A stretch of DNA of 32,041 bases from Planctomycetota bacterium. Its GTDB lineage: Bacteria > Planctomycetota > Planctomycetia > Planctomycetales > Planctomycetaceae. The stretch spans positions 1 through 32,041 of the forward strand of contig JAQCEJ010000062.1 in NCBI GenBank assembly GCA_027618475.1, read 5' to 3'. The notes beneath the pieces were generated by a model. The model ran no database searches. It was not told where the DNA came from and was given only the letters and a program-made list of their open reading frames with translations. This document shows positions 1-28,950 of this stretch, in pieces (position 1 is the stretch's first letter; every line of letters starts with the position of its first letter). The translations under genes and the position numbers were made by a program.

Positions 1-825
1 CACGATTCCCCCCGCCGCGATGAACAGCCCCGTCACGGCAACGGTGAGGGAGTCCGAAATAAAAGGCGTGATCAGCAACAACGCGGCGATTTTGGGTGTA
101 TCGTTCAGTCCGCGTGCAAAGCTCACAATCCCCGCAGAGCCAATATGCAGCCAATCGAGAGTGGTCGCCGCATCAATGCCCAGAACGCGGCCCTGGTAAC
201 GATTTCTGCATGTCGCCGAATTCCCCCAGATGAAACCGAGATCGGCCACCCGTTGCATCGCCAACACGCTTTGAGACGCGGGTACAATTTCGACGATTTC
301 GGATCCCATACAAATACAGGTTTCCGTGGTTACTCCCAGACGAACGCGGATCGCGCGCAACATTGGATAAATCACGGCTGAGATCGTCATGGCCAACAGC
401 GGGCTGACAAGAAGCGGCAAGACAAACGCCATTCCCAGTTGATGCAGATTAACCAGCGATCCCGAGGCAATTCCGGCTCCGATCAGGGCACCGAATAGAC
501 TATGGGTCGTGGAGATCGGCATGCCGATTCGAGTCGCCAGCAGCACTGTTGTCGCCGCGCCAAGACCAACTGCTGCCGCATAATCGGAACTGCCTGCCAG
601 CGTTTCGCTCACCAGCCCTTTTCCACTGAAAGCCTTCAGCAGATGCGCGGCGAGCATCACCGCACACAGAGAACCGGCGAACGTCGTCGCCGTGGCCCAA
701 CCCAAGGCGCGACCAAAACCAAGTGTACCACTCCCGTAAAGAGTCGCGACCCCCTTGAAATTATCGTTGGTTCCGTTGGCAAACGCCAAGAGCAGGACGG
801 AAATCGTCAATATCACAAAGATCAT
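1..825 (-). CDS. PiT-family inorganic phosphate transporter, partial
   Basis: Inner-membrane permease of the PiT family, which takes up phosphate (and, as a family property, arsenate by mimicry) using an ion gradient. 275 codons are open from the ATG at 825 to the window edge, so the C-terminus is missing. The two PiT signatures are visible: an N-terminal NGTNDNFKG at residues 17-25 and GMPISTTHS at about 101-109. Hydrophobic segments surround both. The start lies 19 bp after the stop of the AhpD-like gene, so the two are probably co-transcribed. It is the last visible gene of a run that includes ArsM and ArsS, which makes a phosphate/arsenate connection attractive, but substrate preference cannot be read from sequence. 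Family call is firm; the link to arsenic is inference. Confidence 0.88.
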   Translation of the reverse strand, partial: MIFVILTISVLLLAFANGTNDNFKGVATLYGSGTLGFGRALGWATATTFAGSLCAVMLAAHLLKAFSGKGLVSETLAGSSDYAAAVGLGAATTVLLATRIGMPISTTHSLFGALIGAGIASGSLVNLHQLGMAFVLPLLVSPLLAMTISAVIYPMLRAIRVRLGVTTETCICMGSEIVEIVPASQSVLAMQRVADLGFIWGNSATCRNRYQGRVLGIDAATTLDWLHIGSAGIVSFARGLNDTPKIAALLLITPFISDSLTVAVTGLFIAAGGIV

Positions 826-844
826 GATCACTCTCGTCTGGCGC

Positions 845-1402
845 TTAGATGGTGTGCCTGTTCGTCCATGCTTCCACCGCGAATTCATCATCCAGAGGAG
901 TGCGCGCCACGTGATTCGTGTAATTGGATAGCGTTTTCATCCCCACACCCAAAATCACTTCCAACACTTGCTCGGGCCGAAACCCCGCAGCAACGAAGTC
1001 GTCGAGCGTATCCTCCGAGGGCCATCCCTGGGTTTCCACTATTTCCATCGTCAGTTGACGAAGCGCCTGTAACCGACCGTCGGTCAGCGGCTGACGCTCT
1101 CGAACGGCTTTGATTTCATCGCGAGGGACGGAGCACATCCCCGCTCCCACGCTGTGGGCCGCGACGCAATATTCGCAGTGGTTCGATTCGCTGACCGTAA
1201 GCAGCACGATTTGCTGCTCCTGGGGAGTGAGCGACGAACCTTCAAACAAGCCGCTGAGATTGAGGTACGCACTCAACAACGGCGGGGCGTTTGCCATCAC
1301 CCCGATCAAATTCGGCAAGAATCCGAAACGCTTTTCCACGGACTTGACCATGTTTCTCGATTCGGCCGGTGCAGTTTCCTGCGTGTGAACGTCGAATTGC
1401 AT
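845..1402 (-). CDS. AhpD-like carboxymuconolactone decarboxylase-fold peroxidase, likely ArsS-associated
   Basis: 185-aa cytoplasmic protein of the AhpD/carboxymuconolactone decarboxylase fold. The AhpD active-site pattern E-x3-C-x2-C-x3-H is complete: Glu72, Cys76, Cys79 and His83, in SESNHCEYCVAAH. Family members use the CxxC pair for peroxide or disulfide chemistry. A subgroup of this fold is known to accompany ArsS in arsenosugar clusters, and the position 0.8 kb downstream of arsS fits that. The ATG at 1402 is chosen over an upstream TTG at 1432 because AAAGG sits 6 bp before it and the shorter protein begins as relatives do (MQFDVHTQETAP). Neighbours are the peroxiredoxin upstream (95 bp gap) and PiT downstream (19 bp gap). 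The fold is certain; the arsenosugar role is inferred from context. Confidence 0.85.
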   Translation of the reverse strand: MQFDVHTQETAPAESRNMVKSVEKRFGFLPNLIGVMANAPPLLSAYLNLSGLFEGSSLTPQEQQIVLLTVSESNHCEYCVAAHSVGAGMCSVPRDEIKAVRERQPLTDGRLQALRQLTMEIVETQGWPSEDTLDDFVAAGFRPEQVLEVILGVGMKTLSNYTNHVARTPLDDEFAVEAWTNRHTI

Positions 1403-1497
1403 GAGGAACCTTTCTGAAGAAGTTAGCGGCAATGAGAAAGGAAATCGTCACAATTGTTGCTGAACGTAAACGGGTCTTGCCGTCCGAGCCGTGGACT

Positions 1498-2085
1498 TCA
1501 ATTGTTGTCTGCCAATTCTTTGAGTATCTCCTTCGTGCTGGTTCTTCCTGCATGGGAGTTACTGATTTTCACGAACGAAATGGTTTGATCTTTCTCGATC
1601 ACGAATGTCGATGGATAGGCCGTTTCGCGAACGGCGTCCCATCTCAAGCCGTATTCGTTGGTGAACTCGTAATCGGCATCGATCAGCAGATGGAAACCCT
1701 CAGGCAATTTTTTCTCCCCCAGGAACTCTTGTGCCCGATCGGAAAGACCGGTCGAGGTGCCGGGATAAACGAATGCGACCTGCACGCCGTGCTGCTTAAA
1801 CTTTTTCGCCTGCTGCAGGAAATCGCTGACCTGCTTGTTGCACAGCGGGCATTGATATCCCGGATATCCTCGCAGCACCACGAGAACGACCCGACCGTCT
1901 TCTACCAGATCGGAAAGCGTTACGGTTTCGCCGGCATGCGATACGAGTTCGAAGTCGGGGGCCGTATCGCCGACTTTCAGGCTTTGTTCGTCGGCAGACG
2001 CATGTGCGTTCGCCCAAGCAATTGTGGCGGCCACGGCCGTAAGGGCAAAAACGCCTTGTCGTAAAGATCTTTTGGAAACGTTCAT
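1498..2085 (-). CDS. Exported peroxiredoxin-like protein (AhpC/TSA family)
   Basis: 195-aa thioredoxin-fold protein of the AhpC/TSA/redoxin group. Residues 1-31 form a Sec-type signal peptide (basic MNVSKRSLRQ, then a hydrophobic stretch, then ANAHASA), so it should act outside the cytoplasmic membrane. The redox site is YPGYQCPLCNKQ with Cys79 and Cys82 as a CxxC pair, closer to thioredoxin-like peroxiredoxins than to 1-Cys enzymes. A longer frame extends upstream to 2268 but overlaps arsS; the ATG at 2085 has AAGGGA about 8 bp upstream and exposes the signal peptide directly. It lies between arsS (109 bp gap) and the AhpD-like gene (95 bp gap), suggesting thiol/peroxide chemistry coupled to the arsenic genes. 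That functional coupling is inference. Confidence 0.85.
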   Translation of the reverse strand: MNVSKRSLRQGVFALTAVAATIAWANAHASADEQSLKVGDTAPDFELVSHAGETVTLSDLVEDGRVVLVVLRGYPGYQCPLCNKQVSDFLQQAKKFKQHGVQVAFVYPGTSTGLSDRAQEFLGEKKLPEGFHLLIDADYEFTNEYGLRWDAVRETAYPSTFVIEKDQTISFVKISNSHAGRTSTKEILKELADNN

Positions 2086-2194
2086 CGCGATGTCCCTTCT
2101 CTGAGTGTCCGTAGTTCGGTCTACTGTCTCGTAGCGATCGTTGGATGCATTGATGATGCGTGGGAACGCAACTATTGGCAGTAACTGGGGCGCG

Positions 2195-3241
2195 TCAGTA
2201 TTGAAGGCTCCCCTGACAACTCGAACCAGATCCCGCCGTACAGCCGAAACAATGATTTCCTGTGACAATTCGTCGGCGTTTCAGGCGCTCGATGGCCGAT
2301 GCTTCGAGGTCGCGAACATGCAGTGGAATGTCGCCGACAATCGCCAGGTCGAGCATCTGATTGAAGTCGCAATCGTAAAGATGGCCCTGCCAGTCGACAG
2401 AGAGCGTCGAGCGACACATCAGACCATCGACCGTTGCCGGGTTGAACGCCTCGATCAATTTTTGCATGTACGTCTCGTACTGACCCGATTGATGTAGTTC
2501 ATCGAGAAATCGGCTGATCGGCATATTCGTCAATGTAAACAGCCGGGTGAACTCGATGCTGTATCGCGACCGCAACTCGCGGCGATAATCCTGTTCCAGT
2601 TGTGCCTGATTCGGAGGCAATCGCGGCCCCTGCGGATTGAAGACCAGCGTCAATGACAGTGGCGAAGTCGATTGTCCATACCCCAACTGATTGAGACGCC
2701 GGAGCGCCGCGATCGAACGTTGAAATACGCGATTGCCGCGTTGCCGGTCGACGTTTTCTTCCAGGTAGCACGGCAGAGATGCCACGACCTCCACGTCGTG
2801 CGCCGCGAGAAATTCGGGCAGATCATCGTATCCTGGCGCTTCGAGAATGGTCAGATTGCAGCGATCGATGACTCGCCGCTTCAGGCCGTGCGCTTGCTCA
2901 ACGATCCAGCGGAAGTGCGGATTCATTTCCGGAGCGCCCCCCGTGAGATCGAGTGTCGGAATATCAGCTTCTCTGAGCAATAACAAACAGGCGGCGGCGA
3001 TCTCCTTCGTCATAATCTCTCGGCGATCGGGGCCGGCGTCAACGTGACAGTGATGGCAGTTCTGATTGCAAAGTTTGCCAAGATTGACCTGCAACACCTC
3101 GATTCCCATCGTTTCAAGTGCGGGGATGTCGTGTGAGGCCAGAACCTGCTCGAAAAACGATATTTCCGATCGTTCATCGAGAATGCGAAGCGGAAGCACA
3201 GAATCCACAGAGGGCTCTCGCAAGATTTTCAGTTCAGACAT
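2195..3241 (-). CDS. arsS: Arsenosugar biosynthesis radical SAM protein ArsS
   Basis: 348-aa radical SAM enzyme of the radical SAM/Cys-rich family now called ArsS, which joins a 5'-deoxyadenosyl group to methylated arsenic on the way to arsenosugars. The 4Fe-4S motif is CNQNCHHC with Cys58, Cys62 and Cys65, followed by DLTGGAPEMNP, the glycine-rich SAM-contact strand. The C-terminal third has the Cys-rich domain: LMCRST, YDCDFNQ, then CFGC (Cys331, Cys334) and Cys342. In some family members the last cluster contains selenocysteine; here all are Cys codons and no in-frame TGA is needed. Its ATG lies inside the end of csrA, overlapping by 13 nt, so translation is probably coupled. ArsM, the methylating partner, is two genes upstream. 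Confident family assignment. Confidence 0.93.
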   Translation of the reverse strand: MSELKILREPSVDSVLPLRILDERSEISFFEQVLASHDIPALETMGIEVLQVNLGKLCNQNCHHCHVDAGPDRREIMTKEIAAACLLLLREADIPTLDLTGGAPEMNPHFRWIVEQAHGLKRRVIDRCNLTILEAPGYDDLPEFLAAHDVEVVASLPCYLEENVDRQRGNRVFQRSIAALRRLNQLGYGQSTSPLSLTLVFNPQGPRLPPNQAQLEQDYRRELRSRYSIEFTRLFTLTNMPISRFLDELHQSGQYETYMQKLIEAFNPATVDGLMCRSTLSVDWQGHLYDCDFNQMLDLAIVGDIPLHVRDLEASAIERLKRRRIVTGNHCFGCTAGSGSSCQGSLQY

Positions 3242-3456
3242 CCAAAAGTTCCTTTTTTGCTGCCGGTCACAGGTGCTTCGCCGGTCTCCGGTTCGCCTTC
3301 GATTTCGAGCAATGAAATCTCCAATCGCCGAATGGACTTGTCGCGAGGAGCTTTTATCCCCACCCGCACCCGACCCCCAGATATTCCGACGATGGAAATT
3401 GTCGTGTTTTCACCAATCATGATCTGCTCTCCGAGTTTACGAGTGAGAATTAACAT
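3229..3456 (-). CDS. csrA: CsrA post-transcriptional regulator, copy 1 (between arsM and arsS)
   Basis: 75-aa CsrA/RsmA RNA-binding protein, which binds GGA-containing RNA loops as a dimer and usually represses translation. The fold is recognisable throughout: MLILTRKLGEQIMIG, then GGRVRVGIKAPRDKSIRRLEI. Residues needed for RNA contact in enteric CsrA (Leu4, Arg6, Arg44) are all present. The ATG at 3456 is preceded by AAGGAAGG; a longer upstream frame starting at 3675 runs into arsM and is not used. The C-terminal 25 residues (EGEPETGEAPVTGSKKGTFG and on) are a family-atypical tail. It lies 58 bp after arsM and overlaps arsS by 13 nt, an unusual place for a global regulator. It differs clearly from the second CsrA at 12.0-12.2 kb, so it is not a recent duplicate. 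Confidence 0.92.
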   Translation of the reverse strand: MLILTRKLGEQIMIGENTTISIVGISGGRVRVGIKAPRDKSIRRLEISLLEIEGEPETGEAPVTGSKKGTFGCLN

Positions 3457-3469
3457 GATCACCTTCCTT

Positions 3470-3512
3470 GGGTTCAATACTTGGCGTAGAGTGGGCGACG
3501 AACGCCGAACCC
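3470..3512 (-). promoter_or_regulatory. Nested stem-loop between arsM and the csrA ribosome binding site
   Basis: On the minus strand GGGTTC pairs with GAACCC, and inside it GGCGT pairs with ACGCC. The foot of the outer stem at 3470 directly abuts the csrA Shine-Dalgarno AAGGAAGG (3462-3469). It could modulate csrA/arsS translation or protect the processed mRNA end. The arms are only 5-6 bp and no folding was computed, so this is tentative. Confidence 0.35.
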
Positions 3513-3514
3513 GC

Positions 3515-4687
3515 TCAGCAGCAGGCACCATCCGTGCCACAACAGGGGCCGATTTCTTCTGTTGTCTCGTGGTAGTCGCTCCCTTTCGTCTCCCGGGGTA
3601 GCCGCACTTTGCTGCGATGGCAGTCAAACAGCCGGGCGTCGGCGAGCGGGATGTCTTCGCGCGGCTCGACGCCATCGAAGCATCCTACATAGGGGGGACG
3701 CAGCAACAAGTGGAACGTTTTATCGCAAACGGCCATCCGCTGCCCCCGCATGTAAATGTGCCCGTCGTCGTCTTCGACTTTTCTGAACGGTCCGCGATAA
3801 ACGACGGCCTGATTTCGTTCCAGACATGGGCCCTGTTTCCCCTTATAGGCCACAACCGTGATCGACCGGAATTCGATGCCATCTACTGTCCGCCACGGTA
3901 CCGCTTGTCGCTTGGCGATTTCAATACCGTGAAATCCCGCTTCCTCGAATGCTTCGACAAATTGGTCCTCCCGAAATGCGCCTGATATGCATCCGGACCA
4001 CAATTCAGGATCGTGTTGGAGCGACGTCGGCACGTCCTCATCGGAAACAATGTCGCTGATCGCCGCCCGTCCCCCTCTTTTGAGCACGCGAAAGATTTCA
4101 CCGAATAACTGCCGACGATCCTGTGGACGCACCAGATTCAGTACGCAATTCGAAACAACGCAGTCGACGGAATCGTCGGCAATCATCGGCTGCTCGCGCC
4201 GCAACCGCTCTTCGCGATGCCGCAGTTTCAGCCAGGCGGAGGGGTCGCGGATCGGATGCTGCGAGAGTTCGCGTCCCAGCAGATCGAGATCGAGCCGTAG
4301 ATCCTGAATCAGTCCATAGCGGAAGTCGACGTTTTCAAAACCGAGTCGATAGGCAACCTGTTGCTGGTACTTGCGCGCAAGTCCCAGCATCTCGCGGTTA
4401 CAGTCCACACCGATCACACGCCCGTGCTGACCGACAACCTGCGCCAGAATGTAACAGAGTTTACCACCACCGGAGCCCAGATCGAGGACTGTTTCGCCGT
4501 TGCGGACATAGCAAGAGGGATCTCCGCACCCGTAATCGCGTTCGAGAATTTCCCGTGGGATCGCCGCGAGTAACTCCGTATTATACGCCACGGGACAGCA
4601 CAGCGCCGCTTCTTTTTCCTGTGCGGCGGCGGCGTATCGCTGATAAACCGAATCCTCCGCTGCAGCATTTGCATTATTATCGATCAT
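3515..4687 (-). CDS. arsM: ArsM-like arsenite S-adenosylmethionine methyltransferase
   Basis: 390-aa class I SAM methyltransferase that should methylate As(III) to methylated arsenicals. The SAM motif I is VLDLGSGGG (residues 67-75) with the acidic GVDCNREM after it. Cys181 in SNCVLNL and Cys233 in SGCISGA match the two conserved As(III)-binding cysteines of ArsM, and Cys54, Cys59 or the Cys30-Cys31 pair could supply the third ligand. The C-terminus ends in CCGTDGACC, a cysteine pair doublet typical of metal/metalloid-binding tails. The ATG at 4687 has AAGGA 8 bp upstream. It is the first gene of the arsM-csrA-arsS run; a shared 16-bp element lies about 85 bp upstream. Arsenic specificity rests on the Cys pattern and on ArsS downstream; another thiol-metalloid acceptor is possible but less likely. 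Confidence 0.85.
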   Translation of the reverse strand: MIDNNANAAAEDSVYQRYAAAAQEKEAALCCPVAYNTELLAAIPREILERDYGCGDPSCYVRNGETVLDLGSGGGKLCYILAQVVGQHGRVIGVDCNREMLGLARKYQQQVAYRLGFENVDFRYGLIQDLRLDLDLLGRELSQHPIRDPSAWLKLRHREERLRREQPMIADDSVDCVVSNCVLNLVRPQDRRQLFGEIFRVLKRGGRAAISDIVSDEDVPTSLQHDPELWSGCISGAFREDQFVEAFEEAGFHGIEIAKRQAVPWRTVDGIEFRSITVVAYKGKQGPCLERNQAVVYRGPFRKVEDDDGHIYMRGQRMAVCDKTFHLLLRPPYVGCFDGVEPREDIPLADARLFDCHRSKVRLPRETKGSDYHETTEEIGPCCGTDGACC

Positions 4688-4771
4688 CTATAAATCCTTT
4701 TTCAGCATTCAACATAGATCAAACACAGATACGGCGTTTATCATTTTTAGTCCTGAAGTGGGATGACACTC

Positions 4772-9274: not shown

Positions 9275-10789
9275 TCACCGCGTCCATGCCAGCCATTTGT
9301 GAAACAGCGATTTGACGAATGGAGTCAGCTTCGTTCGATTGAATTGATCGCCCAGTTTGCGAATCGCCTCGGCTTGAGTGGGATAAGGGTGGATGGTGCT
9401 GCCGATCTTGCTCAAACCCAGACCGTGCGTCATCGCCAGTGTGATTTCGGAGATCAGGTCGCCCGCGTGGCGGGCGACGATCGTCGCTCCGACGATGTCG
9501 TCGGTTCCTTTCTTCACGTGAACTTTGACAAAGCCGCTGTCATCGCCATCCAAAATCGCACGATCTACGTCTTTGAACTCTTGCATGTACGTATCGACTT
9601 CGATTCCCTTTTCCTTGGCTTGGTTTTCGTACAGCCCCACATGGGCAATTTCCGGCGACGTGTAGGTACACCAGGGAATCACCAGCGACGATGACTTTTT
9701 ACGACCTTTGAACAGCGCGTTCTGTATCACGATCCTCGCCATGAAATCGGCCGCGTGCGTGAACTGAAATGGCGAACAAATGTCTCCCGCGGCGTAGATT
9801 CGAGGATTCGTCGTCTGCATGCGTTCGTTCACAGTGACTCCCTTCTTGTGGTATTCCACGCCCACGGCATTTAGATTCAGATCCTCGACATTCGGCGCTC
9901 GGCCGACCGACACCAAGAGCTGGTCGATCGGTTCGTTATACCCGGTGCCGTGCGATTCGACGGTAAGCCGGATTCCGTCATCGTTTTTGATCGCCAGATT
10001 CTTGCCGCAGCACAGCAGCTTGACGCCATCGCGATCCATCGCCTGCTGCACGATCTCAGCCGCATCGCGGTCTTCGCGCGGCAGGATGCCGTGTTCCGCT
10101 TCGACCACAAACACCTCGGAGCCGAATTGGGCGAACGTTTGAGCCATCTCGCAGCCGATCGGCCCGGCACCGATGACGCCGAGACGTCGAGGCAACTCGG
10201 TCAGCGAAAACAGCGTCTCGTTGGTCAGATAGTCGACAGAATCTAAACCGGGAATCGGCGGAGCGGTGGCTCGCGCACCAGTTGCGATCACGGCACGTTT
10301 GAACTGGAGCCGCGTGCCATCCACGTCGATGGTGCTGGAATCGACAAAACTCGCCTGCCCGAAATAGACATCAACCCCGAGGTCGCGAAACCGCTGTGCC
10401 GAATCATTCGGGCTGATACGGGCACGCAGTCGTCGCATCCGCTGCATGGCCGCGGTGAAGTTCACGTTCACATCGTCGGTCACTTCCACGCCAAACTCAC
10501 GTGCATGTCGCAAGGTTGCCGCCACACGGGCCGCGCTGATGATGCCCTTCGAAGGCACGCAGCCGACATTCAGGCAATCGCCCCCCATCAGGCTGCGTTC
10601 GATGAGTGCCACTTTGGCTCCGAGTCCCGCCGCTCCAGCGGCGGTCACCAGGCCGGCAGTGCCTGCTCCGATGACGACCAGGTTGTATCGTCCTTGCGGC
10701 GTCGGGTTGCTCCAGTTGGGTGGATGGACGTTCGCTTCAAGTTGCTCGTTGAATTCATCTTTCGGTAATAGCTGAAGAAGTTCCGACAT
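9275..10789 (-). CDS. MerA-like FAD-dependent pyridine nucleotide-disulfide oxidoreductase
   Basis: 504-aa flavoprotein of the class I disulfide oxidoreductase family (mercuric reductase / dihydrolipoamide dehydrogenase group). After a 30-residue leader come the FAD-binding GAGTAG (41-46), the redox-active GGDCLNVGCVPSK with Cys72 and Cys77, the NAD(P)-binding GVIGAGPIGCEMAQ, and the dimer-interface HPYPTQAEAIRK near the C-terminus. The NmerA heavy-metal domain and the C-terminal vicinal cysteine pair needed to receive Hg(II) in true MerA are both absent, so mercury reduction is not supported. It starts 36 bp after the TVP38/TMEM64 gene. In many bacteria these two are fused or adjacent, which points to a shared but poorly known membrane-associated redox role. 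ATG at 10789 with GGA upstream. Confidence 0.88.
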   Translation of the reverse strand: MSELLQLLPKDEFNEQLEANVHPPNWSNPTPQGRYNLVVIGAGTAGLVTAAGAAGLGAKVALIERSLMGGDCLNVGCVPSKGIISAARVAATLRHAREFGVEVTDDVNVNFTAAMQRMRRLRARISPNDSAQRFRDLGVDVYFGQASFVDSSTIDVDGTRLQFKRAVIATGARATAPPIPGLDSVDYLTNETLFSLTELPRRLGVIGAGPIGCEMAQTFAQFGSEVFVVEAEHGILPREDRDAAEIVQQAMDRDGVKLLCCGKNLAIKNDDGIRLTVESHGTGYNEPIDQLLVSVGRAPNVEDLNLNAVGVEYHKKGVTVNERMQTTNPRIYAAGDICSPFQFTHAADFMARIVIQNALFKGRKKSSSLVIPWCTYTSPEIAHVGLYENQAKEKGIEVDTYMQEFKDVDRAILDGDDSGFVKVHVKKGTDDIVGATIVARHAGDLISEITLAMTHGLGLSKIGSTIHPYPTQAEAIRKLGDQFNRTKLTPFVKSLFHKWLAWTR

Positions 10790-10825: not shown

Positions 10826-11641
10826 TCACAGCGATTTCGTGGCTGCGTTATGTGATTTGGCGTTGTCGTCGCCCGTTCCCGGAACGGGTTGGTCCGGATT
10901 CGTGCGAGATATCAGTTTCATCGCCCCGCGCACCGCGTAAGGAAAGAGACCCAAGAGAACGAAGGCGACCAGAATCTGCGTCAACTGCCCCGGCGTGAAA
11001 ACAGCGTCTACTCCTTTCTCCGCGAGTCTTTGAAGACCGGGAACGCTGGAACCGGCATAAACATAAACGGCCGTGCCAGGCAGCATTCCTACTTGGCTCA
11101 CCCACCAAAAGGTTCTTGCCGGAATTGGCGTCAATCCCATCACCGCGTTGATGACGAAAAAGGGAACCGCGGGTATCAGCCGCAAACTGAACAGGTAGAA
11201 TGGCCCCTCTCGTTGCAACGCTCGATTGAAATTGTCGAGGCGGTCGCCGAATCGATGCTGAATCACGTCACGAAACAGAAAGCGGCTCAACAGGAACGCC
11301 AGCGTTGCCCCGGCAGTTGAGGAAAAGCTCACGACGATGACACCGCGAATGAGACCGAAGTACCAGCCGTAAGTTAGCGTCAAGACTGTAGCGCCAGGAA
11401 GCGATAGTCCCGTGACGACGACATAGAACAGGAATGCCACGCCGTAAACCAGCACGGGATATTGCTGCTGAAACTCCCGCAATCGCGATTCTTGACGTGC
11501 GAGATTTTGCAGACTCAGGTTGTCACCGAGTTGCCAGTATCCGATAGCCACCGCACATGCGGAGAGCACCATCACCAACAACTTCGTCCCCGAGACCCTG
11601 CCACGAGCCGGATTCGGTGCATCGCTTTGGTTTAACGTCAC
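10826..11641 (-). CDS. TVP38/TMEM64 family (VTT domain) membrane protein
   Basis: About 271-aa polytopic inner-membrane protein of the TVP38/TMEM64/DedA-related VTT family; eukaryotic relatives are lipid scramblases. One TM helix lies near residues 20-38, then a short helical linker rich in Q/E/R, then the VTT core beginning LFYVVVTGLSLPGATVLTLTYGWYFG and ending with GMLPGTAVYVYAGSS, a region holding the family glycine-rich re-entrant segment. A last TM helix (ILVAFVLLGLFPYAV) precedes a polar tail. Start is uncertain: GTG at 11641 has GAAGG 10 bp upstream; a TTG at 11695 would add 18 residues but has no visible ribosome site. It is 36 bp upstream of the MerA-like gene, a familiar partnership. 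Confidence 0.85.
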   Translation of the reverse strand: MTLNQSDAPNPARGRVSGTKLLVMVLSACAVAIGYWQLGDNLSLQNLARQESRLREFQQQYPVLVYGVAFLFYVVVTGLSLPGATVLTLTYGWYFGLIRGVIVVSFSSTAGATLAFLLSRFLFRDVIQHRFGDRLDNFNRALQREGPFYLFSLRLIPAVPFFVINAVMGLTPIPARTFWWVSQVGMLPGTAVYVYAGSSVPGLQRLAEKGVDAVFTPGQLTQILVAFVLLGLFPYAVRGAMKLISRTNPDQPVPGTGDDNAKSHNAATKSL

Positions 11642-11737
11642 TTTTTTTGCACCTTCACGAAACCTAACAGTTCGATTCTCTATTACGAAACGCAATGGGA
11701 CTTGACGACGGCCGCGGGAACCACATGGAAAATCGGT

Positions 11738-12058
11738 TCAATACCCCTGATTCCGACAGCATTGCCGAGCCAGATGGGCCAATCGCTGCAGCGTTTCCCG
11801 GTCGAGAAACTCGATATGCCGATCGAGATCGCTGCGGAACAGGGCCGAGAATTCCGCGGCATGGATGACTAGAATCAACTCCTCGCACGTCATATGATCG
11901 ATTCGGTGGACGTTCAATTCCGCGACGGAGAATTTGTCCCAGGCATCAATGCCATCGATCGATTCTCGTGGATCACAAACGGGTCCATAAAGACATTCTG
12001 CCGGTTTCCCGCCGCCCTCAGGCTGCAGGACATTGTTCAATTTCATCTGCTGATTCAT
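11738..12058 (-). CDS. Orphan 106-aa protein overlapping csrA copy 2
   Basis: Not recognised. A 106-aa soluble protein with no signal peptide or TM segment. The first 35 residues are low in secondary structure and hold CLYGPVCDP, a Cys-x5-Cys pair; the rest looks alpha-helical and acidic, and a CC pair sits near the C-terminus. The ATG at 12058 lies inside csrA, and the two genes overlap by 41 nt in different frames, so expression is likely coupled. The downstream gene (TVP38) begins 96 bp later. It might be a CsrA-associated partner or antagonist (as FliW is elsewhere), but it does not resemble FliW and this is only a suggestion from position. Confidence 0.6.
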   Translation of the reverse strand: MNQQMKLNNVLQPEGGGKPAECLYGPVCDPRESIDGIDAWDKFSVAELNVHRIDHMTCEELILVIHAAEFSALFRSDLDRHIEFLDRETLQRLAHLARQCCRNQGY

Positions 12059-12233
12059 GTCGGTCCTCTAGTTCTTCCTGGATGAGTTGCCGGAGTTCTC
12101 CGCGTTGAACGGATAGTTCCCGCGGTGCCTTGATCGCCAGGCGAATGCGGTTGCCGCGAATTTCCACGATCGTAATTTCGATCTGGCTACCGACGACGAT
12201 GCTTTCGCCGGGCTTTCGACTTAATACCAGCAT
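12018..12233 (-). CDS. csrA: CsrA post-transcriptional regulator, copy 2
   Basis: 71-aa CsrA-family RNA-binding protein. MLVLSRKPGESIVVG and NRIRLAIKAPRELSVQRGEL align along the whole family; Leu4, Arg6 and Arg44, important for RNA binding in enteric CsrA, are present. The tail is acidic (EELEDRHESADEIEQ). The ATG at 12233 has an unusually strong Shine-Dalgarno, AGGAGGAG, 4-5 bp upstream. It shares its 3' 41 nt with the next gene. Upstream, 78 bp away, is the BON-domain gene. It is quite different from copy 1 at 3.2-3.5 kb (for example PGESIVVGSQ against LGEQIMIGEN), so the paralogues probably have separate targets. Confidence 0.93.
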   Translation of the reverse strand: MLVLSRKPGESIVVGSQIEITIVEIRGNRIRLAIKAPRELSVQRGELRQLIQEELEDRHESADEIEQCPAA

Positions 12234-12311
12234 ATTACTCCTCCTGAGTGCTAATGACGGCGGGGATGATCAAGACGCGAATAAAAAAGTCGAACTAGGA
12301 TGAATCGACTG

Positions 12312-12614
12312 TCAGTCATAATGGATTCTCACCTCGACGGAATTGACAATGCAACGGATTGCCGGAACGCCGCGGACCGCCTCCTGCACCTGTTGCTTCT
12401 CGAAAAAAGAATGAACGCGGCCATGCAGCAACAGGATTCCGTCGTGCTCGCTGCACGAGACCGCTCGAAAGCCCCTCTGGTAAGGGCTGGTTCGGATGAG
12501 ATCCCGGGCTGCCCTGGCGATTTCGCCGTTGGTTGTCATACCCTGTTTTTCGATAATGTTACGCCAGGTGTTGGCCGTATCAAGTTCGTTCACCGATAGT
12601 GTCTGCTCCGTCAT
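12312..12614 (-). CDS. Small BON-domain protein
   Basis: About 100-aa protein with a single BON domain over residues 25-100 (EIARAARDLIRTSPYQRG, then ILLLHGRVHSFFEKQQVQEAVRGVPAI and IVNSVEVRI). The alternating helix-strand pattern and the glycine in the LHGRV turn match the fold, which usually binds phospholipid or attaches to envelopes. There is no signal peptide, unlike OsmY-type BON proteins, so a cytoplasmic regulatory role is possible. Start choice: ATG at 12614 has GGAG 9 bp upstream; ATG at 12620 is too close to it and a TTG at 12632 is less likely. It precedes csrA copy 2 by 78 bp. Confidence 0.72.
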   Translation of the reverse strand: MTEQTLSVNELDTANTWRNIIEKQGMTTNGEIARAARDLIRTSPYQRGFRAVSCSEHDGILLLHGRVHSFFEKQQVQEAVRGVPAIRCIVNSVEVRIHYD

Positions 12615-12820: not shown

Positions 12821-14524
12821 TCATACGGCATTTTGTGACGGCCCATCTGTACGATGGAGTACAGTTCTCGATTTCGCGGTGTCGATCAACAGCCAACCCA
12901 TCCAGATCGAATGTTCGATTGGAACGATCACGAAGTGGTAAAACGCTTCGCCGCGGTAGTTCGTCTGAAACAAGTACGTCTCCGGGAAGTGATACGCAAA
13001 ATAAAATCGCGTGTAATACAGAAACAATAGGCCTGAAACGGCCATCCAGGCGCGGCTCGTCGCGAAGGGAAGTAGCGGCATAGCCCAACACCAATACCAG
13101 GGATTGAGTGTGGGGGACAAAGCCCAGAACCAAGCGATGGTGAGGAATGCCGACGCCAGGAATCCCTCTGCAGAATCTCGAAACGTGGCATGTCGAATGA
13201 GCCCAGCGGCGACGAGCAGAAAAATCAGAAGGGTCACGACCCGTGCTATGAGAAATGTCATATCGTCGGGTGTGAGACTCCAACTTCTTGTGAGTGATCC
13301 AATAAATGCATTTCGCCATGCGCCCGGAATAACGACGAACCACGGTTGAGTACCCGTATCGGATCGACCGATGAACTCCCGATCCGGCCGAATGTTTTCG
13401 ACCACGAGCATAAACAGCAAATCGTTGATTTCCCAATTGCGAAGAAACTCCGCCAATCCGTTATCCGGCGGTCGTGTCGTGTCCGCCGTTGTCGACGACC
13501 CTGTCGAGAACATGGGGGCCATCGCGATCGCACTGACGATCACCGTCGCCGCCGCGAAAACCCCGGAGCATTTCCACGATCGATGCCGCACCACGACAAC
13601 CGTTATTAGCGGCAATAGAATGATCGGGAAGAGTTTCGCCGCGGTCCCCAGCCCTAAAAATACACCGGCAGAAATCGGCCAGTAACGGGCACACGGTTTT
13701 TCGAAACGTATGCCCCAAACGACACAGCAGATCGACGCCGTGCAGAGACAGACGGCGATTGTATCGAGATGCCCGCTGTTGGCGAACTCCTTCAAAATCA
13801 GAGGATTCCACGCATAGAGGAACCCCCAGCCGGGATGACGCCCCATCCATTTGAGCATCAGCAGCACCAGTCCGATGGTGGCTCCATCGAACAGAAGTAG
13901 AACGGCCTTCATGACACGCACGTGGTTCGTCACGCTCGCCGATTGCGGGGTGAGCAACGCCGCCATTGCAAATACAGCCTGACTGGCGGGAGGATACACG
14001 GTCGTCAATTCGCCGAAATGAATCCGTTTCAAAATTTCCGACAACGGAGGCGAGCTGTCCCGCAAATCGACAAGCCGCTGCAATGCAGCGGGCAGGGATA
14101 CATCTGCATTCGCCTTTAGAACTTGCTCCGGACTAAATCGAAAAGGATTGACGCCTTCCGCGACGACGGCCCCGTCCCACAGGTATCGATAAATATCGAT
14201 TTCCTGGATCGGTGTCGAAAACAACAGAATGCCACGAAATGTCGCTGCGCCGATCACAAGTGTAATGATAACCTGACGATGGTTATCGATTCTCAGAGCC
14301 GTCTTAAAACTCAGCAGATGAAGCATGAAGGCCACGGTCAGCAAACTGAGCATCCAGAGAATCGGCCGTTGGCCGAACGGCTCGTGGTAATCAAAACGTG
14401 GGCTGATGAAGGCCAATAAGGCATATAACATGCCTTGGGCGACAGAGGACAGAATGAGAATCGTCAAATGGGAAGGGTGCAAGATTTTATGACGAACAGG
14501 AAGTTGCCAATCTCCATGACCCAT
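12821..14524 (-). CDS. GT-C-like polytopic membrane glycosyltransferase
   Basis: 567-aa inner-membrane protein with about 11-13 hydrophobic segments, resembling GT-C enzymes of the GT87/mannosyltransferase group that use polyprenyl-phosphate sugars on the outer face of the membrane. The first extracellular loop carries IDIYRYLWDGAVVAEGVNPFRFSPEQV, with the acidic residues expected at a GT-C active site, and TVYPPASQAVF follows. Further loops contain GLGTAAKLFPIILLPL and ALSPTLNPWYWCW. Start: the ATG at 14524 overlaps the GT2 stop by one base (TAATG), a classic coupled junction; a GTG at 14539 would add five residues. The upstream GT2 could make the polyprenyl-phosphate sugar it uses. Acceptor is unknown. 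Confidence 0.78.
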   Translation of the reverse strand: MGHGDWQLPVRHKILHPSHLTILILSSVAQGMLYALLAFISPRFDYHEPFGQRPILWMLSLLTVAFMLHLLSFKTALRIDNHRQVIITLVIGAATFRGILLFSTPIQEIDIYRYLWDGAVVAEGVNPFRFSPEQVLKANADVSLPAALQRLVDLRDSSPPLSEILKRIHFGELTTVYPPASQAVFAMAALLTPQSASVTNHVRVMKAVLLLFDGATIGLVLLMLKWMGRHPGWGFLYAWNPLILKEFANSGHLDTIAVCLCTASICCVVWGIRFEKPCARYWPISAGVFLGLGTAAKLFPIILLPLITVVVVRHRSWKCSGVFAAATVIVSAIAMAPMFSTGSSTTADTTRPPDNGLAEFLRNWEINDLLFMLVVENIRPDREFIGRSDTGTQPWFVVIPGAWRNAFIGSLTRSWSLTPDDMTFLIARVVTLLIFLLVAAGLIRHATFRDSAEGFLASAFLTIAWFWALSPTLNPWYWCWAMPLLPFATSRAWMAVSGLLFLYYTRFYFAYHFPETYLFQTNYRGEAFYHFVIVPIEHSIWMGWLLIDTAKSRTVLHRTDGPSQNAV

Positions 14525-15309
14525 TATCTGGTTCGCCACGTTTGCAACCGATATCGAGCGATGGTGTAGAGAATCTTGTAGCCGGCCATAATCGTGCCGC
14601 GAATCGTCCCGCTGATTTTGCTCTGTCCGATTCTGCGGCGATAACTGACGGGAACCTCTTTAATCCTCAAGCCCGCCGTCGTGGCTTTGATTTGCATTTC
14701 GACCGTCCAGCCAAAATTGGTGTCGGACATTTCCAATTGTTTGAGAGCGTCGTAACGGATCGCTCGGAATGGACCAAGATCGGTGTAGTTTGCCTTCCAG
14801 AACCAACGCATCAGAAAACAAGCCAGTTTATTGCCATAGATACTCTGCGGCGGCATGGCTCCGGCATCGCGGTTTCCCAATAATCGCGACCCCAGCACGA
14901 AATCCGCCTCGTTTTTCAGGATAGGGTCGACCAACAGCGCGAGTTCGTCGGGGTGATCGCTGTAATCGCCGTCCAGAAAAACAATGATATCCGGCCGCGT
15001 TTCGCCATATCGAACCAATTGATCAATGTGTGCGAGTCCGGCTAGACACGCCGATCCATATCCGCGACGAGATTGAAATATGACGTCGGCGTGACCGCTG
15101 AGAGCGACGCTCGCTGTCGCATCCGTGGACCCATTATCGACAACCAGCACGCGACCGACATGCGGAAGATCGTTCAGCACATACGGCAACGACGACTGCT
15201 CGTTCCTCGCGGGGATGACAACCCACACGTGATCGTACGGGGGCACCGCCGCTGTCGGACCGGAAGCATCGGCGCGTAACGTTGATAAGACTCTCGTAGT
15301 GTTAATCAT
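14524..15309 (-). CDS. GT2 glycosyltransferase, dolichol-phosphate-mannose-synthase-like
   Basis: 261-aa GT-A-fold glycosyltransferase of family 2 lacking any strong TM segment. Motifs: VWVVIPARNEQSSL at the N-terminal nucleotide-binding strand, VVDNGSTDAT, the metal-binding FLDGDYSDHPDEL (DxD-like), and LGSRLLG. This resembles polyprenyl-phosphate sugar synthases and undecaprenyl-linked GT2s. ATG at 15309 with GGAG 7 bp upstream. It is directly coupled to the GT-C-like gene (1-nt overlap), which strongly suggests a donor-maker/donor-user pair. Some arsenosugar loci contain GT2 enzymes too; whether this belongs to that subgroup cannot be decided by eye. Confidence 0.85.
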   Translation of the reverse strand: MINTTRVLSTLRADASGPTAAVPPYDHVWVVIPARNEQSSLPYVLNDLPHVGRVLVVDNGSTDATASVALSGHADVIFQSRRGYGSACLAGLAHIDQLVRYGETRPDIIVFLDGDYSDHPDELALLVDPILKNEADFVLGSRLLGNRDAGAMPPQSIYGNKLACFLMRWFWKANYTDLGPFRAIRYDALKQLEMSDTNFGWTVEMQIKATTAGLRIKEVPVSYRRRIGQSKISGTIRGTIMAGYKILYTIARYRLQTWRTR

Positions 15310-15954: not shown

Positions 15955-16791
15955 TTAACGCCGTGACTGATCATTCAGACTCCAGTCATAATCGAGATAC
16001 TTCACCCGGGCCTTGCCGCTCGCGGTTAAGCGTTGTGCGGAGTCCGGAACATACGGGGCAATCGTCTGCAATTGTTCCGCCGAGTTCTTTCCAAAATCGT
16101 CGGCAAACCAGTCCAAAATCGGCGAAACGTGAATGACGCCCGACTTCGTATCTGCCGAGAACTTCGAACGATCGGCAAAAAAATTCTTCGTATTCATCGT
16201 CAGTTGCTCATCTAATCGCTCGGCGACGTAGGCTTCATTCAATAAACGCGGACATCCAATTGAGGCGCAGACAATCGCAAAGTGAATTCGCGGCTCGTTC
16301 ATTTTCCGCAGAATTTCGTGCTCGATCGTCTCCAGCGAATAGGGCTTGCCTGCGACCAGCAACTGCAAGTCTTTCCAAATGTTGTATCCCACTACCTTTG
16401 CCGTATGATTGCGAATGCTCGATGTCGGATACTCGCGCAGAATCCCCTTGACGGTGAGTGCATTATAGGCGTTGATCCAGAAGGCCAATTGGGACTCGCG
16501 CGATGAGTTCCGGGAGATCTTCGCCGCCGAGAGATGATTCAGATAATCATCCAACAACTTTTGATCTGCTGCGGATGCTTTCCATTGGGTGTAGTCGACG
16601 TATCCCGCTTTATCGACATGTTTTCTGAGTAACCGATCCCAGGCCTCGTGATGGATCTCTTCAACCGGAACCTGTTTCGACACGGAGACATCGACCCCTA
16701 CCATCACTGCGGACCCGGCATAACAAAAGGTCGTGACCATAATTCCAACAGCGATTCCCGAGAAAACGGCGATCTTGGCGTAACGATGCAT
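15955..16791 (-). CDS. Exported DUF547 protein
   Basis: 278-aa protein with a signal peptide (residues 1-26, RYAKIAVFSGIAVGIMVTTFCYAGS) followed by a complete DUF547 domain. Family landmarks visible are QLAFWINAYNALTVKGIL, SIRNH, SLETIEHEILR, EPRIHFAIVCASIGCPRL and LDEQL. The CASIGCP pair of cysteines with the nearby His makes a catalytic role plausible, and DUF547 has been compared with papain-like folds, but no reaction is established. ATG at 16791 with AAGGA 8 bp upstream. It leads the five-gene minus-strand run ending in the two glycosyltransferases, and carries the same upstream 16-mer as arsM. From memory, DUF547 genes are common near ArsS, TVP38 and MerA-like genes. Confidence 0.87.
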   Translation of the reverse strand: MHRYAKIAVFSGIAVGIMVTTFCYAGSAVMVGVDVSVSKQVPVEEIHHEAWDRLLRKHVDKAGYVDYTQWKASAADQKLLDDYLNHLSAAKISRNSSRESQLAFWINAYNALTVKGILREYPTSSIRNHTAKVVGYNIWKDLQLLVAGKPYSLETIEHEILRKMNEPRIHFAIVCASIGCPRLLNEAYVAERLDEQLTMNTKNFFADRSKFSADTKSGVIHVSPILDWFADDFGKNSAEQLQTIAPYVPDSAQRLTASGKARVKYLDYDWSLNDQSRR

Positions 16792-25405: not shown

Positions 25406-26752
25406 TCATGGTTTCGCTGCGTGCCTGAACATAGACAGCACAGTCCGTACAGGGGCCAGTGGGTAGCGGTCCAGAAGGCGGTAGAACATTTCCCAGGTCA
25501 TCGATCGAAGGCGGTTGCGGCGGTAAAGCCACTTCCGCCAACAAGCTTTGACCTCGAAAAGGAAACGTGTCAACGCCGCGGAATTACCCGTGACACCATA
25601 GTACGCATAATGACCGCGAAGTTTCTGATTCAGCGTCTGCTGCTGTTCCTGAAGCGACCAGTGCCGGTGATCCCGACACCATGAGTCAATGCTCCGCACT
25701 GCTCTGCTGAAACGGTCGGACGCCGTCTGCTGTTTGACCACCCAGTAGCCTCGCTGGGATCGTCCCCAATAATGGGTGAATCCCAACAAGTCGAACGTAC
25801 CAGGGCGAGCGACTTGCGCGGTACTCTGGTCCCTGGTTCTGACGGACGGGGGCCGGAAAGGCACAAGCTTCGTCTTGGTAGGATGGACTGTCAGACCGAA
25901 CCTGCCAAATCGTTTCGGCACGACCGCAAAAACGCGTTCCGCGTCCTGTTGGTCCTCGAAGCCGATGACGAAGTCATCCGCATAGCGGATGAGGAAGGCA
26001 CGACGACGCATGCGCGGTTTCACATCCTGTTCGAACCAGAGGTCCAGCACATAGTGCAGGAATACGTTCGAGAGGATTGGTGAAACCACGCCGCCCTGCG
26101 GCGTTCCGGCGTCAGGGTAGCTGATGCTCCCGTCTTCCAGCACGCCGGCACTCAGCCATTTGTCGATCAGGCGTAGCAACACACCGTCACGCACCCGACG
26201 TCGAAGAAACTCTCGCAAGTGGCCGTGATCCAGATTGTCGAAAAACTTTCGGATATCCACTTCAAGTACAAAGCCGCCCCGACAGTTCATCAACTGGTTT
26301 CGGAAAGCCTCCAACGCCTGATGTGCCGATCGCCCGGGGCGGAATCCGTACGAGCACTCCAGAAAGTCGTGTTCGTAAATCGGCTCCAGCAACATGACGA
26401 CCGCACGCTGGAGGATCTTATCCTCCAGCGTGGGAATTCCGAGCGGGCGAGTCTCGGTACTCGAGCCGCCTTTCGGAATATGCACACGCCGCACTGGCGG
26501 AGCCTGGTACGTGCCGGACTTCGCGCGGTCGAGCAGTCGCTGCAGGTTGCCCTCCAGGTCACGCTCGTAATCGTCCGCATTCACTCCGTCAACGCCCACG
26601 GCACCGTCCTTGCGGGTCCGTCGGTACGCTTCTTTCAACCAGTCGAGGTCCATCAGATAGGCCAGCGAAGTGAACGCCATTTGCGGCGATTGTTTCGCCA
26701 ACGCTGCTATCCGTTCCTGTTTCGGTGACACGATGGTCAGATTTCGATGCAT
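25406..26752 (-). CDS. ltrA: Group II intron reverse transcriptase/maturase
   Basis: 448-aa intron-encoded protein. RT motifs run in order: RRVHIPKGGSSTETRPLGIPTLEDKILQ, then ECSYGFRPGRSAHQAL, EVDIRKFFDNLDH (Asp166), TPQGGVVSPILSN and the catalytic YADD (257-260, RYADDFVIGF), with the YADD aspartates intact. The maturase (X) domain covers about residues 365-415, with KLRGHYAYYGVTGN and KACWRKWLYRRN. There is no C-terminal HNH endonuclease, so it would depend on other nicking or on single-stranded DNA for mobility. No strong ribosome site precedes the ATG at 26752, common in intron ORFs. The reading frame is whole and looks functional. Confidence 0.93.
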   Translation of the reverse strand: MHRNLTIVSPKQERIAALAKQSPQMAFTSLAYLMDLDWLKEAYRRTRKDGAVGVDGVNADDYERDLEGNLQRLLDRAKSGTYQAPPVRRVHIPKGGSSTETRPLGIPTLEDKILQRAVVMLLEPIYEHDFLECSYGFRPGRSAHQALEAFRNQLMNCRGGFVLEVDIRKFFDNLDHGHLREFLRRRVRDGVLLRLIDKWLSAGVLEDGSISYPDAGTPQGGVVSPILSNVFLHYVLDLWFEQDVKPRMRRRAFLIRYADDFVIGFEDQQDAERVFAVVPKRFGRFGLTVHPTKTKLVPFRPPSVRTRDQSTAQVARPGTFDLLGFTHYWGRSQRGYWVVKQQTASDRFSRAVRSIDSWCRDHRHWSLQEQQQTLNQKLRGHYAYYGVTGNSAALTRFLFEVKACWRKWLYRRNRLRSMTWEMFYRLLDRYPLAPVRTVLSMFRHAAKP

Positions 26753-27352
26753 CTGTCGTGGTTCTCAAAAACGGTTCCATGATCCGACGTCTCGCTTCCC
26801 TCCGCTGGCTCCAGCAGGGGGCTGTTCGCCAGCTTCAACGGTACTATCAAGACGCTATGACTTCCTGACGCCCATCCCACCGCACTTCGTTGCCTTCGTT
26901 TGGTGGTACCTCAATGTTCACTCGTTAAGTTCGCTCCCCGGCGGACGAGTGCGCCGCCAAGGCCTGGAGTTGGTAACCCGGTTCTCCGGCCGGGATCGCA
27001 CTGAGGAAACGACAGGACCTCCCAAGTTCCTGGAGAATCCCAATTGCCTGTCTGCACATGTTCAATCGACTCCGGCAGGACTGCTGACACCAGACCAATA
27101 AAGTGCCGCAGCGTGGCCCCAGGGGTCGGAAAAACAGAGGCTCCCGCAACTGGTCTTTCGAAGCTCAATAGCATGGCTTTCAGACTGGCTGTCTACGCTT
27201 CGCCGGACGGGTTACCCGCGTACGACGCAAGACTCGCTTCCGGCCGCTGGTCAAGCTCTACCGGACGGGCTTTCCACCCGCAGGACTCCTACGAAAGGTT
27301 TCAGATTTGCATTCTTACATCTCTTCCTCCTCTCCCAAGCTTCTTGGCGCAA
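26753..27352 (-). ncRNA. 5' structured part of the group II intron (domains I-IV)
   Basis: About 600 bp with no gene of its own on either strand. On the minus strand it contains segments characteristic of intron domain I, including CTGCGGGTGGAAAGCCCGTC and CGCGGGTAACCCGTCCGGCG, which form local GC-rich stems. The several open frames here are by-products of this high GC structure. Confidence 0.6.
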
Positions 27353-27426: not shown

Positions 27427-28023
27427 TCACTTGCTGCGACGAATGACCCCCTGGACGACTCCGATGATGTCGAGATCGCTCGTGTGAACGGCCTCCGAAC
27501 CGTCCACGAGTGAGTCCAGGCGAGCACGCCCTTTGTGCTTGCGGAATCGTCTCAGCAGCGCCGCATCGCCATTCAAGGCGACGACGACTTCTCCATCATG
27601 TGCGTCTCTTCGCCGATGCACGATGACGAAATCCCCTTGAGCGATCGATTCGCCGGATAACGAATCATCGTTGACTCGCAGACAAAAATGGTCTTCCTGC
27701 CCGAACAGATCGCCGAAGTCAATTCGTTCATCCTGTTGAACGGCCAACAAGGGAGTCCCCGCAGCGACCTGACCGGCCAGTGCCAGACTGGTGCGTTTCA
27801 TCCGGGGCTTGGTCAACTGTATCGCCCGCGACATATTTGGTTCGCGGGTAATGAGCCCTTTCTTTTCCAGTGCTTTCAAATGGCACACCACGCCGTTAGG
27901 AGAAAGAATGCCGAACTCCAATCCGATCTCGCGAACCGTAGGACCGTATCCGCGATTGGTGATCTTATCCGCGATGAATTCATAGATGTCCCGCTGACGA
28001 CTCGTCAATTCGGCTTCGTCCAT
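27427..28023 (-). CDS. lexA: LexA-like repressor with Lys-to-Arg change in the catalytic dyad
   Basis: 198-aa LexA family protein. The winged-helix DNA-binding domain (1-70) is normal: RQRDIYEFIADKI, TVREIGLEFGILSPNGVVCHLKALEKKGLI. The Ala88-Gly89 cleavage site is kept within GQVAAGTPLLA. In the protease domain the nucleophile is Ser121, in RVNDDSLSGESIAQGD, although the usual GxSM is DDSL. Aligning VVVALNGDAALLRRF with E. coli VVVARIDDEVTVKRL puts Arg158 (codon AGA) at the catalytic Lys156. Self-cleavage may therefore be lost or slow. ATG at 28023 has AGGAG 8 bp upstream. No standard SOS box (CTGT-N8-ACAG or GAAC-N4-GTTC) is visible upstream. Family certain; autoproteolysis doubtful. Confidence 0.88.
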   Translation of the reverse strand: MDEAELTSRQRDIYEFIADKITNRGYGPTVREIGLEFGILSPNGVVCHLKALEKKGLITREPNMSRAIQLTKPRMKRTSLALAGQVAAGTPLLAVQQDERIDFGDLFGQEDHFCLRVNDDSLSGESIAQGDFVIVHRRRDAHDGEVVVALNGDAALLRRFRKHKGRARLDSLVDGSEAVHTSDLDIIGVVQGVIRRSK

Positions 28024-28237
28024 GTCGCTGCTCCTAGAGTTGTTCCCGCTGGTTAATGTTCAAATGCCATTGCTGACTATCTTAACTATCACGTTGGGGG
28101 AATGCACAATCCTCGCTCATCAAAAAATGCGACTCACCAGTCCGGATTATCGAGCCGATTCACCTGCAATTCCTTTGATCTCACCCTCAAATCACCACAA
28201 ACCCCCCGTCTTCAATCAACCGCACGTCCGCTAACGA

Positions 28238-28480
28238 TCATGCCGCACAGGCATTGTACAGCGCATCGAGCCAATGGTTCTGTTTGCGGACCCGTTCCCA
28301 GCGAGTGACGACGCCTTTGCCCGCCCAACTCTTCTTCAACACCGGCATCCCCGTCTGTCTCTGGTTCCTCACGCGCGACAAGACCGGCAAGAACATCCGC
28401 AAAGGGACGCCCACCTCCGTTTCCCGCGAGAAGCGTGCATTGCTTCGATAACCTCGGTGCCAAATGCCGGGTGAGAACAA
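28238..28480 (-). pseudogene. Possible C-terminal remnant of a phage terminase large subunit
   Basis: A frame ending GVVTRWERVRKQNHWLDALYNACAA before a stop. The NHWLDALYNACAA tail resembles the C-terminus of gpA-type terminase large subunits, whose last conserved element is NHWLD or NEWLD followed by an aromatic and Ala-rich end. Nothing convincing of the ATPase or nuclease parts lies upstream (higher coordinates), so at most a fragment remains. The orientation is opposite to the terminase small subunit next to it. Could also be a chance match; the supporting stretch is only about 25 residues. Confidence 0.4.
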
Positions 28481-28702
28481 TCGCCACCGCTTTCAGCACT
28501 AACGAATCGCATGCTGATCAGATTTTCAACGTACTGCCGGTCACATGAATTCATCGTAGCGGCGAAAAGCGGTAGCGACCTTCCAGCAGTTCTGACCGAA
28601 GTTGCGGTTTGAGTTGCTCCCAGCGAAACGCAGTGCACCAACAAAAAAACGGGCGATCCAATGGCTACCCGTTGTGAGAATCGTGTTGTCATCGCATCGT
28701 GT

Positions 28703-28755
28703 TTACACGGCGAGTTTCTTCTTCCGTCGCCAGCCGTAGCCGATGAGACCTACGT
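28703..28755 (-). pseudogene. Relic of a PEP-CTERM sorting tail
   Basis: Minus-strand frame reading LIGYGWRRKKKLAV then TAA, the hydrophobic-to-basic ending of a PEP-CTERM protein. A stop codon lies just before it in the same frame and no PEP motif or upstream protein is found. It looks like the last few codons of a degraded exosortase substrate. Short, so tentative. Confidence 0.35.
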
Positions 28756-28950
28756 GTGCCGTTCACCGATCATCTCACTCTGAGGCAAAGTGATCATCGG
28801 CGTGACCTTGTTTTGCACAAATGATTATGGCCACCGCGAAACGAGAAATACAAGCGGCAGGGCATTTCGACTTCACTTACCCCTTTTCATTGTTACAATA
28901 AAATTGCTTTTACATCACATGTACATAATGAAAAATAAGGCATTGAAACC

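Follow-up and report, generated by a model that had tools for sequence, protein, structure and literature searches.

A csrA gene between arsM and arsS in planctomycetes: a recurrent but narrow arrangement with plausible translational control

Introduction

In the excerpts available from two papers (PMC5413113, PMC7366521), CsrT of Legionella integrative conjugative elements (Abbott et al. 2015) appears as a csrA paralogue suggested to regulate the element, and the second excerpt names Arg44 of E. coli CsrA as an essential arginine. An excerpt on Synechocystis describes ArsM and ArsS as performing the first steps of arsenosugar synthesis (PMC8552651). This study concerns a 32,041-nucleotide stretch of Planctomycetota bacterium DNA (assembly GCA_027618475.1, contig JAQCEJ010000062.1), called the window throughout, in which a csrA gene, csrA1, separates arsM from arsS. 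The arrangement is real and recurrent but narrow, and gene order and protein features make CsrA control of the arsM-arsS operon plausible.

The initial annotation knew of no described CsrA control in arsenic biosynthesis, and none was found in the open-licence literature. Among the matches listed there (titles and abstract openings), no case links CsrA to arsM/arsS, and no paper treating csrA, arsM and arsS together was found. In its excerpt, a Herminiimonas arsenite-oxidase paper mentions CsrA solely as an E. coli comparison (PMC2848651).

Layout and identity of the locus

On the minus strand, arsM (4687-3515) is followed by a 58-bp spacer, csrA1 (3456-3229) and arsS (3241-2195). The initial annotation had described this order, with arsS starting 13 nt inside csrA, and its coordinates are exact. 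The features are as follows:

2195..3241, minus strand: arsS, radical SAM protein (TIGR04167)
3229..3241, minus strand: end of csrA1 overlapping the start of arsS, 13 nt (sequence)
3229..3456, minus strand: csrA1, CsrA-family protein, 75 aa (profile match; Arg44 present)
3457..3514, minus strand: arsM-csrA spacer, 58 nt (its stem-loop, 3512-3470, is no better than shuffles)
3462..3469, minus strand: AAGGAAGG, the csrA1 Shine-Dalgarno, containing an ANGGA core (sequence)
3515..4687, minus strand: arsM, ArsM-type methyltransferase, 390 aa (open reading frame and profile matches)
4694..4699, minus strand: AAGGAT in the arsM leader, unconserved (sequence)

ArsS exceeds the curated cut-off of TIGR04167 (460.7 bits against 300), while ArsM falls short of both the arsenosugar ArsM model NF038099 (138.4 bits against 400) and the arsinothricin ArsM model NF040538 (337.7 against 500), lying nearer to the latter by bits. 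The putative pathway product is therefore read from ArsS, because ArsM reaches neither ArsM cut-off. The same genome holds a second arsS and arsM pair in divergent orientation on another contig (G000:C99, L081), with 61% and 56% identity to the window's arsS and arsM, respectively, and no csrA near it within the stretch scanned.

Recurrence among planctomycetes

Relatives were sought by an ArsM family search of 170 genomes, 106 of which had a match (own genome counted), and by a GTDB contig scan from which the best 80 of 237 loci were used. Three further genomes, all planctomycete metagenome-assembled genomes (MAGs), carry csrA between arsM and arsS: D1_Bin_10 (G451; L041/L069/L165), D4_Bin_7 (G396; L042/L070/L166) and HKST-UBA33 (L167). 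A check for conserved synteny in planctomycetes thus shows that the arrangement is not unique to one strain. Among the fetched loci, window included, csrA lies inside 4 of 102 distinct same-strand arsM-arsS neighbour pairs less than 1.5 kb apart, a set that leaves aside the window copies L008 and L253 and contains weak ArsM matches, such as L270, a 28% partial match absent from a later search. Requiring longer matches gives 4 of 89 pairs. Of the arsS loci in a draw of 392 genomes across the phylum, 110 were scanned, and none had csrA in the fetched stretch; arsM stood just upstream in 39 of them. This draw lacked G396 and G451, took the own genome's second arsS instead of the window's, and did not extend to lower-ranked places or to all second copies of the arsS listing.

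Several candidates were considered and rejected as further cases. L189 and L190 carry csrA about 1 and 3 kb from ars genes, outside the gap. L183 was left uncounted as its csrA comes after a shortened arsS, and G435 was kept out of the 102 pairs as its arsM and arsS are separated by a contig break at a repeat, with no csrA in the available sequence there. Both loci have features of their own: in L183 (5156-5870), from a groundwater planctomycete MAG, the csrA stands alone behind the shortened arsS, and in G435 (L261) unrelated genes, delimited by simple rules and by eye a long ATPase-like protein, an HTH protein and others, separate arsS from the VTT gene.

The junctions differ between the window and its relatives. 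All three relatives share a 7-nt gap between csrA and arsS, in contrast to the 13-nt overlap found in the window only, and their arsM-csrA spacers measure 35, 35 and 39 nt against 58 nt in the window.

The csrA1 protein

The csrA1 product scores 65.3 bits with the Pfam CsrA model PF02599, whose cut-off is 27, and retains Leu4, Arg6, Arg44 and Ile47 of the CsrA core (alignment, E. coli numbering); judged by its sequence, it is a divergent CsrA. Arg44 is also present in csrA2, a second csrA of the window, and in the CsrAs of D1_Bin_10 and D4_Bin_7. The single pair compared, D1_Bin_10 and D4_Bin_7, gives ratios of nonsynonymous to synonymous substitution (dN/dS) for csrA of 0.24 (NG86) and 0.15 (YN00), with 0.06-0.10 for arsS and 0.02-0.03 for arsM, so the relatives' csrA is under purifying selection in this pair.

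The genome has 10 csrA places above the Pfam cut-off, and five relatives (64-100% complete) have 4 to 12 csrA matches. No FliW (PF02623) match was obtained in the genome at E 0.001. HTH_5 (ArsR) matches number four on other contigs of the genome and none on the csrA1 contig, and a search of viral contigs with csrA1 found no relative.

RNA cues in the leaders

The initial annotation also pointed to a nested stem-loop in the spacer and to a CsrA-type motif ahead of arsM. The stem-loop (3512-3470) can indeed be drawn and abuts the csrA1 Shine-Dalgarno, but its fold is at chance: its -15.0 kcal/mol compares with a mean of -14.7 for shuffled sequences (z -0.11), and 86 of 200 shuffles do as well. 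In the three relatives the spacers are shorter and also fold no better than shuffles, and the stem-loop was set aside as a regulatory element. AAGGAT (4699-4694) does sit 6 nt ahead of the arsM ATG; ARGGAT, however, occurs in only one of the four csrA-bearing arsM leaders, compared with 1 of 98 csrA-free leaders and 5 of 54 background starts, and AAGGAT was rejected as a CsrA site since it is unconserved among arsM leaders.

The shorter ANGGA core lies within 20 nt of the arsM start in 3 of 4 csrA-bearing leaders, 45 of 98 csrA-free leaders and 18 of 54 background starts, where arsM starts were chosen by simple rules and the csrA-free leaders do not necessarily stand beside arsS. In the 80 nt before arsM, with starts chosen in the same way, ANGGA counts give p 0.06, short of significance, and a general enrichment of GGA there was discarded as not significant. 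At csrA itself, all four ribosome sites contain ANGGA, a count made without a control set. Taken as sequence cues, the leader motifs leave CsrA binding neither shown nor excluded.

Gene neighbourhood and gap inserts

In the relatives, the gene order is DUF547-GT2-GT-arsM-csrA-arsS-VTT-MerA-like, full in L167 and partial in L069 and L070. The window retains DUF547-GT2-GT and VTT-MerA-like, with a BON-csrA2-small protein module between the two blocks, and its arsM-csrA1-arsS genes stand on the far side of the MerA-like gene, about 5 kb away and past NAD-binding oxidoreductase, GH15 and SpoIIE genes. No mobility gene was seen among the scanned neighbours of arsM-csrA-arsS in the window. The flanking features are:

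845..1432, minus strand: CMD/AhpD-like peroxidase-related protein (profile matches)
1498..2268, minus strand: peroxiredoxin-like protein, AhpC/TSA (profile matches; real start possibly further in)
9275..10789, minus strand: MerA-like FAD oxidoreductase, shared backbone (profile match and cluster comparison)
10826..11695, minus strand: VTT-domain membrane protein, shared backbone (profile match and cluster comparison)
12018..12233, minus strand: csrA2, within the BON-csrA2-small protein module (profile match and cluster comparison)
12821..15309, minus strand: putative membrane glycosyltransferase (no Pfam match, named by eye) and GT2, shared backbone
15955..16791, minus strand: DUF547 protein, shared backbone (profile match and cluster comparison)

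Other genes also occupy the arsM-arsS gap. A scan of 10 open reading frames in 9 of the 18 csrA-free gaps of at least 230 nt found MIP, PHO4, GT2, CMD, DinB (two gaps, one with a SnoaL-like gene), a Y1 transposase and, in two gaps, no match. The MIP, PHO4, GT2 and CMD inserts, in four of the nine gaps, were judged pathway companions. The gap is thus open to inserts, of which about half are plausible companions of the pathway.

The csrA2 module occupies 11738-12614 on the minus strand, about 7 kb upstream of arsM. Its BON-domain gene scores 25.7 bits, just below the Pfam cut-off of 27, and the gene for its small protein (106 aa, no Pfam match) shares 41 nt with csrA2. Of the 170 family genomes, 29 have a homologue of this protein, own genome counted. 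A csrA lies within 1.5 kb of such a homologue, with BON-like genes, in 3 of 11 inspected loci outside the own genome, and two of these three also carry, by eye, a dodecin-like and an Hsp20-like gene. The 106-aa protein is possibly a partner of CsrA. csrA2 was considered as the relocated partner of the relatives' csrA; a single clade is not rejected (p 0.51), but csrA2 belongs to a module with counterparts elsewhere, and the idea was dropped.

Elsewhere in the window, a PHO4 phosphate transporter gene (1-891, minus strand), truncated at the contig end, lies downstream of the ars genes. A group II intron RNA (RF02005, 27273-27059), the sole match of an Rfam scan of the window, accompanies a reverse transcriptase gene at 25406-27273 on the minus strand. 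At 27427-29586, a LexA-like repressor gene and, on the opposite strand, a Terminase_2 small subunit gene hint at a phage remnant.

Function and history of the inserted csrA

Our preferred reading, held tentatively and with a little less than even confidence, is that csrA1 derives from the large pool of csrA paralogues in planctomycetes, was recruited into the arsM-arsS operon and would encode a working RNA-binding CsrA-family protein acting on the operon mRNA. csrA1 is probably on the same mRNA as arsM and arsS because of the spacing and the overlap. A CsrA1 dimer would bind GGA at ribosome sites of this mRNA and tune translation of the operon genes; the sites would include at a minimum the AAGGAAGG of csrA1, and perhaps those at the arsM and arsS starts. 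In favour of this reading are the position of csrA and its recurrence in 4 of 102 pairs, the open frame and core residues of csrA1, the clade formed by the relatives' CsrAs, the selection seen between D1_Bin_10 and D4_Bin_7, the ANGGA core at all four csrA ribosome sites, the companion genes in four of the nine scanned gaps and the lack of an HTH_5 match on the contig. The initial annotation had gone further and proposed a dedicated, autoregulated controller; a dedicated role is plausible (Arg44, selection in one pair, no HTH_5 on the contig), but the cues for autoregulation, namely the stem-loop, ARGGAT, GGA and an overlap private to the window, found no support. A range of findings weighs against recruitment as a working regulator. 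The arrangement is limited to four genomes, and the ArsMs of G397 (66% complete, arsM shortened) and KatS3mg111 nest among the csrA-bearing ArsMs yet lack csrA beside them. The csrA1 product stays below the curated cut-offs of the two best NCBIfam CsrA models, NF002469 and TIGR00202 (64.5 against 73 and 57.8 against 70.1), its positions 40, 42 and 43 are Lys, Ile and Arg, unlike the E. coli letters, and its branch is 2.21 changes per site long, without a fixed placement in the CsrA tree. Position 4 of the D1_Bin_10 CsrA is Arg, the HKST-UBA33 csrA carries a frameshift, and in the pair compared the constraint on csrA is weaker than that on either arsM or arsS. The four csrA-bearing loci share neither a conserved leader structure nor a conserved ARGGAT, ANGGA near starts is common even without csrA, and GGA counts in the 80 nt before arsM (2, 3, 3, 2) are not significantly different from the mean of 2.01 (p 0.15). 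The nine scanned gaps include one with a Y1 transposase gene (L082) and others with DinB or unknown genes. A single clade of the four csrA-bearing ArsMs is also rejected (p 1.4e-5), and losses, transfers or separate gains must therefore have taken place.

Part of this evidence suits a passive insertion, in which a csrA paralogue happened to enter the arsM-arsS gap, was tolerated because arsS is still read, and is now being lost: the few genomes, the losses or absences in nested relatives, the frameshift, the long csrA1 branch and the transposase gene in the same gap all fit. The dN/dS of 0.15-0.24, the identical 7-nt junction across three relatives and the Arg44 kept in three intact copies speak against it, and we regard it as somewhat unlikely. 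Co-transcribed csrA1 might instead relay a signal, so that induction of the operon raises CsrA, which acts on other mRNAs and not on the operon. The ten csrA places make CsrA targets in trans probable, and the leader motifs of the ars operon are unconserved, as a relay would allow; as an additional, diverged member of a set of about ten, however, csrA1 would require targets of its own, none of which is indicated by the present data, and the relay seems unlikely. Whichever function applies, the history is a separate question, and the trees are compatible with a single ancient insertion, followed by losses and strong divergence, as well as with two separate ones. The CsrAs of D1_Bin_10, D4_Bin_7 and HKST-UBA33 form a supported clade (95/84) in a tree with rows cut to 50 residues, the weak own-genome csrA places L251 and L252 dropped and HKST-UBA33 represented by its later in-frame part only. 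The ArsMs of these three relatives, G397 and KatS3mg111 form a starred clade, and the window ArsM falls in a wider, unresolved group. Independent entry of csrA1 and the relatives' csrA into the same gap, a convergent association, would account for the differences in sequence, spacer length and csrA-arsS junction and for csrA2, not csrA1, being the best window match for the csrA of two relatives; against it, a single clade with csrA1 is compatible with the data (p 0.42), and gap and orientation are identical. On balance, separate entry has an even chance. A bolder combination is improbable: planctomycetes would have placed a csrA paralogue in the arsM-arsS core twice, independently, and CsrA would there be a translational controller dedicated to organoarsenic biosynthesis that also limits itself, in a lineage whose roughly ten csrA copies are distributed over separate gene modules in place of a single global CsrA.

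If csrA1 does act on the operon mRNA, it would, as far as searches of the open-licence literature show, be a first instance of organoarsenic synthesis under CsrA control. It would also point to local control of operons as the use that planctomycetes make of their many csrA copies, and the reason for about ten copies in a genome without a FliW match would become testable.

Comparison with known systems

Compared with classical CsrA/RsmA proteins (PF02599), csrA1 shares the Pfam core and Arg44, yet it is embedded in an operon, belongs to a genome without a FliW match and scores below the NCBIfam CsrA cut-offs. Like the Synechocystis system, as its excerpt presents it, the window encodes ArsM together with a radical SAM ArsS; unlike that system, its ArsM is closer to the arsinothricin model and passes neither cut-off, a csrA is added, and the product is putative. 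By analogy, CsrT is the nearest precedent. To the extent covered by the excerpts on CsrT, both are csrA paralogues kept within an accessory gene cluster, whereas csrA1 sits inside a two-gene arsenic core whose scanned neighbours include no mobility gene.
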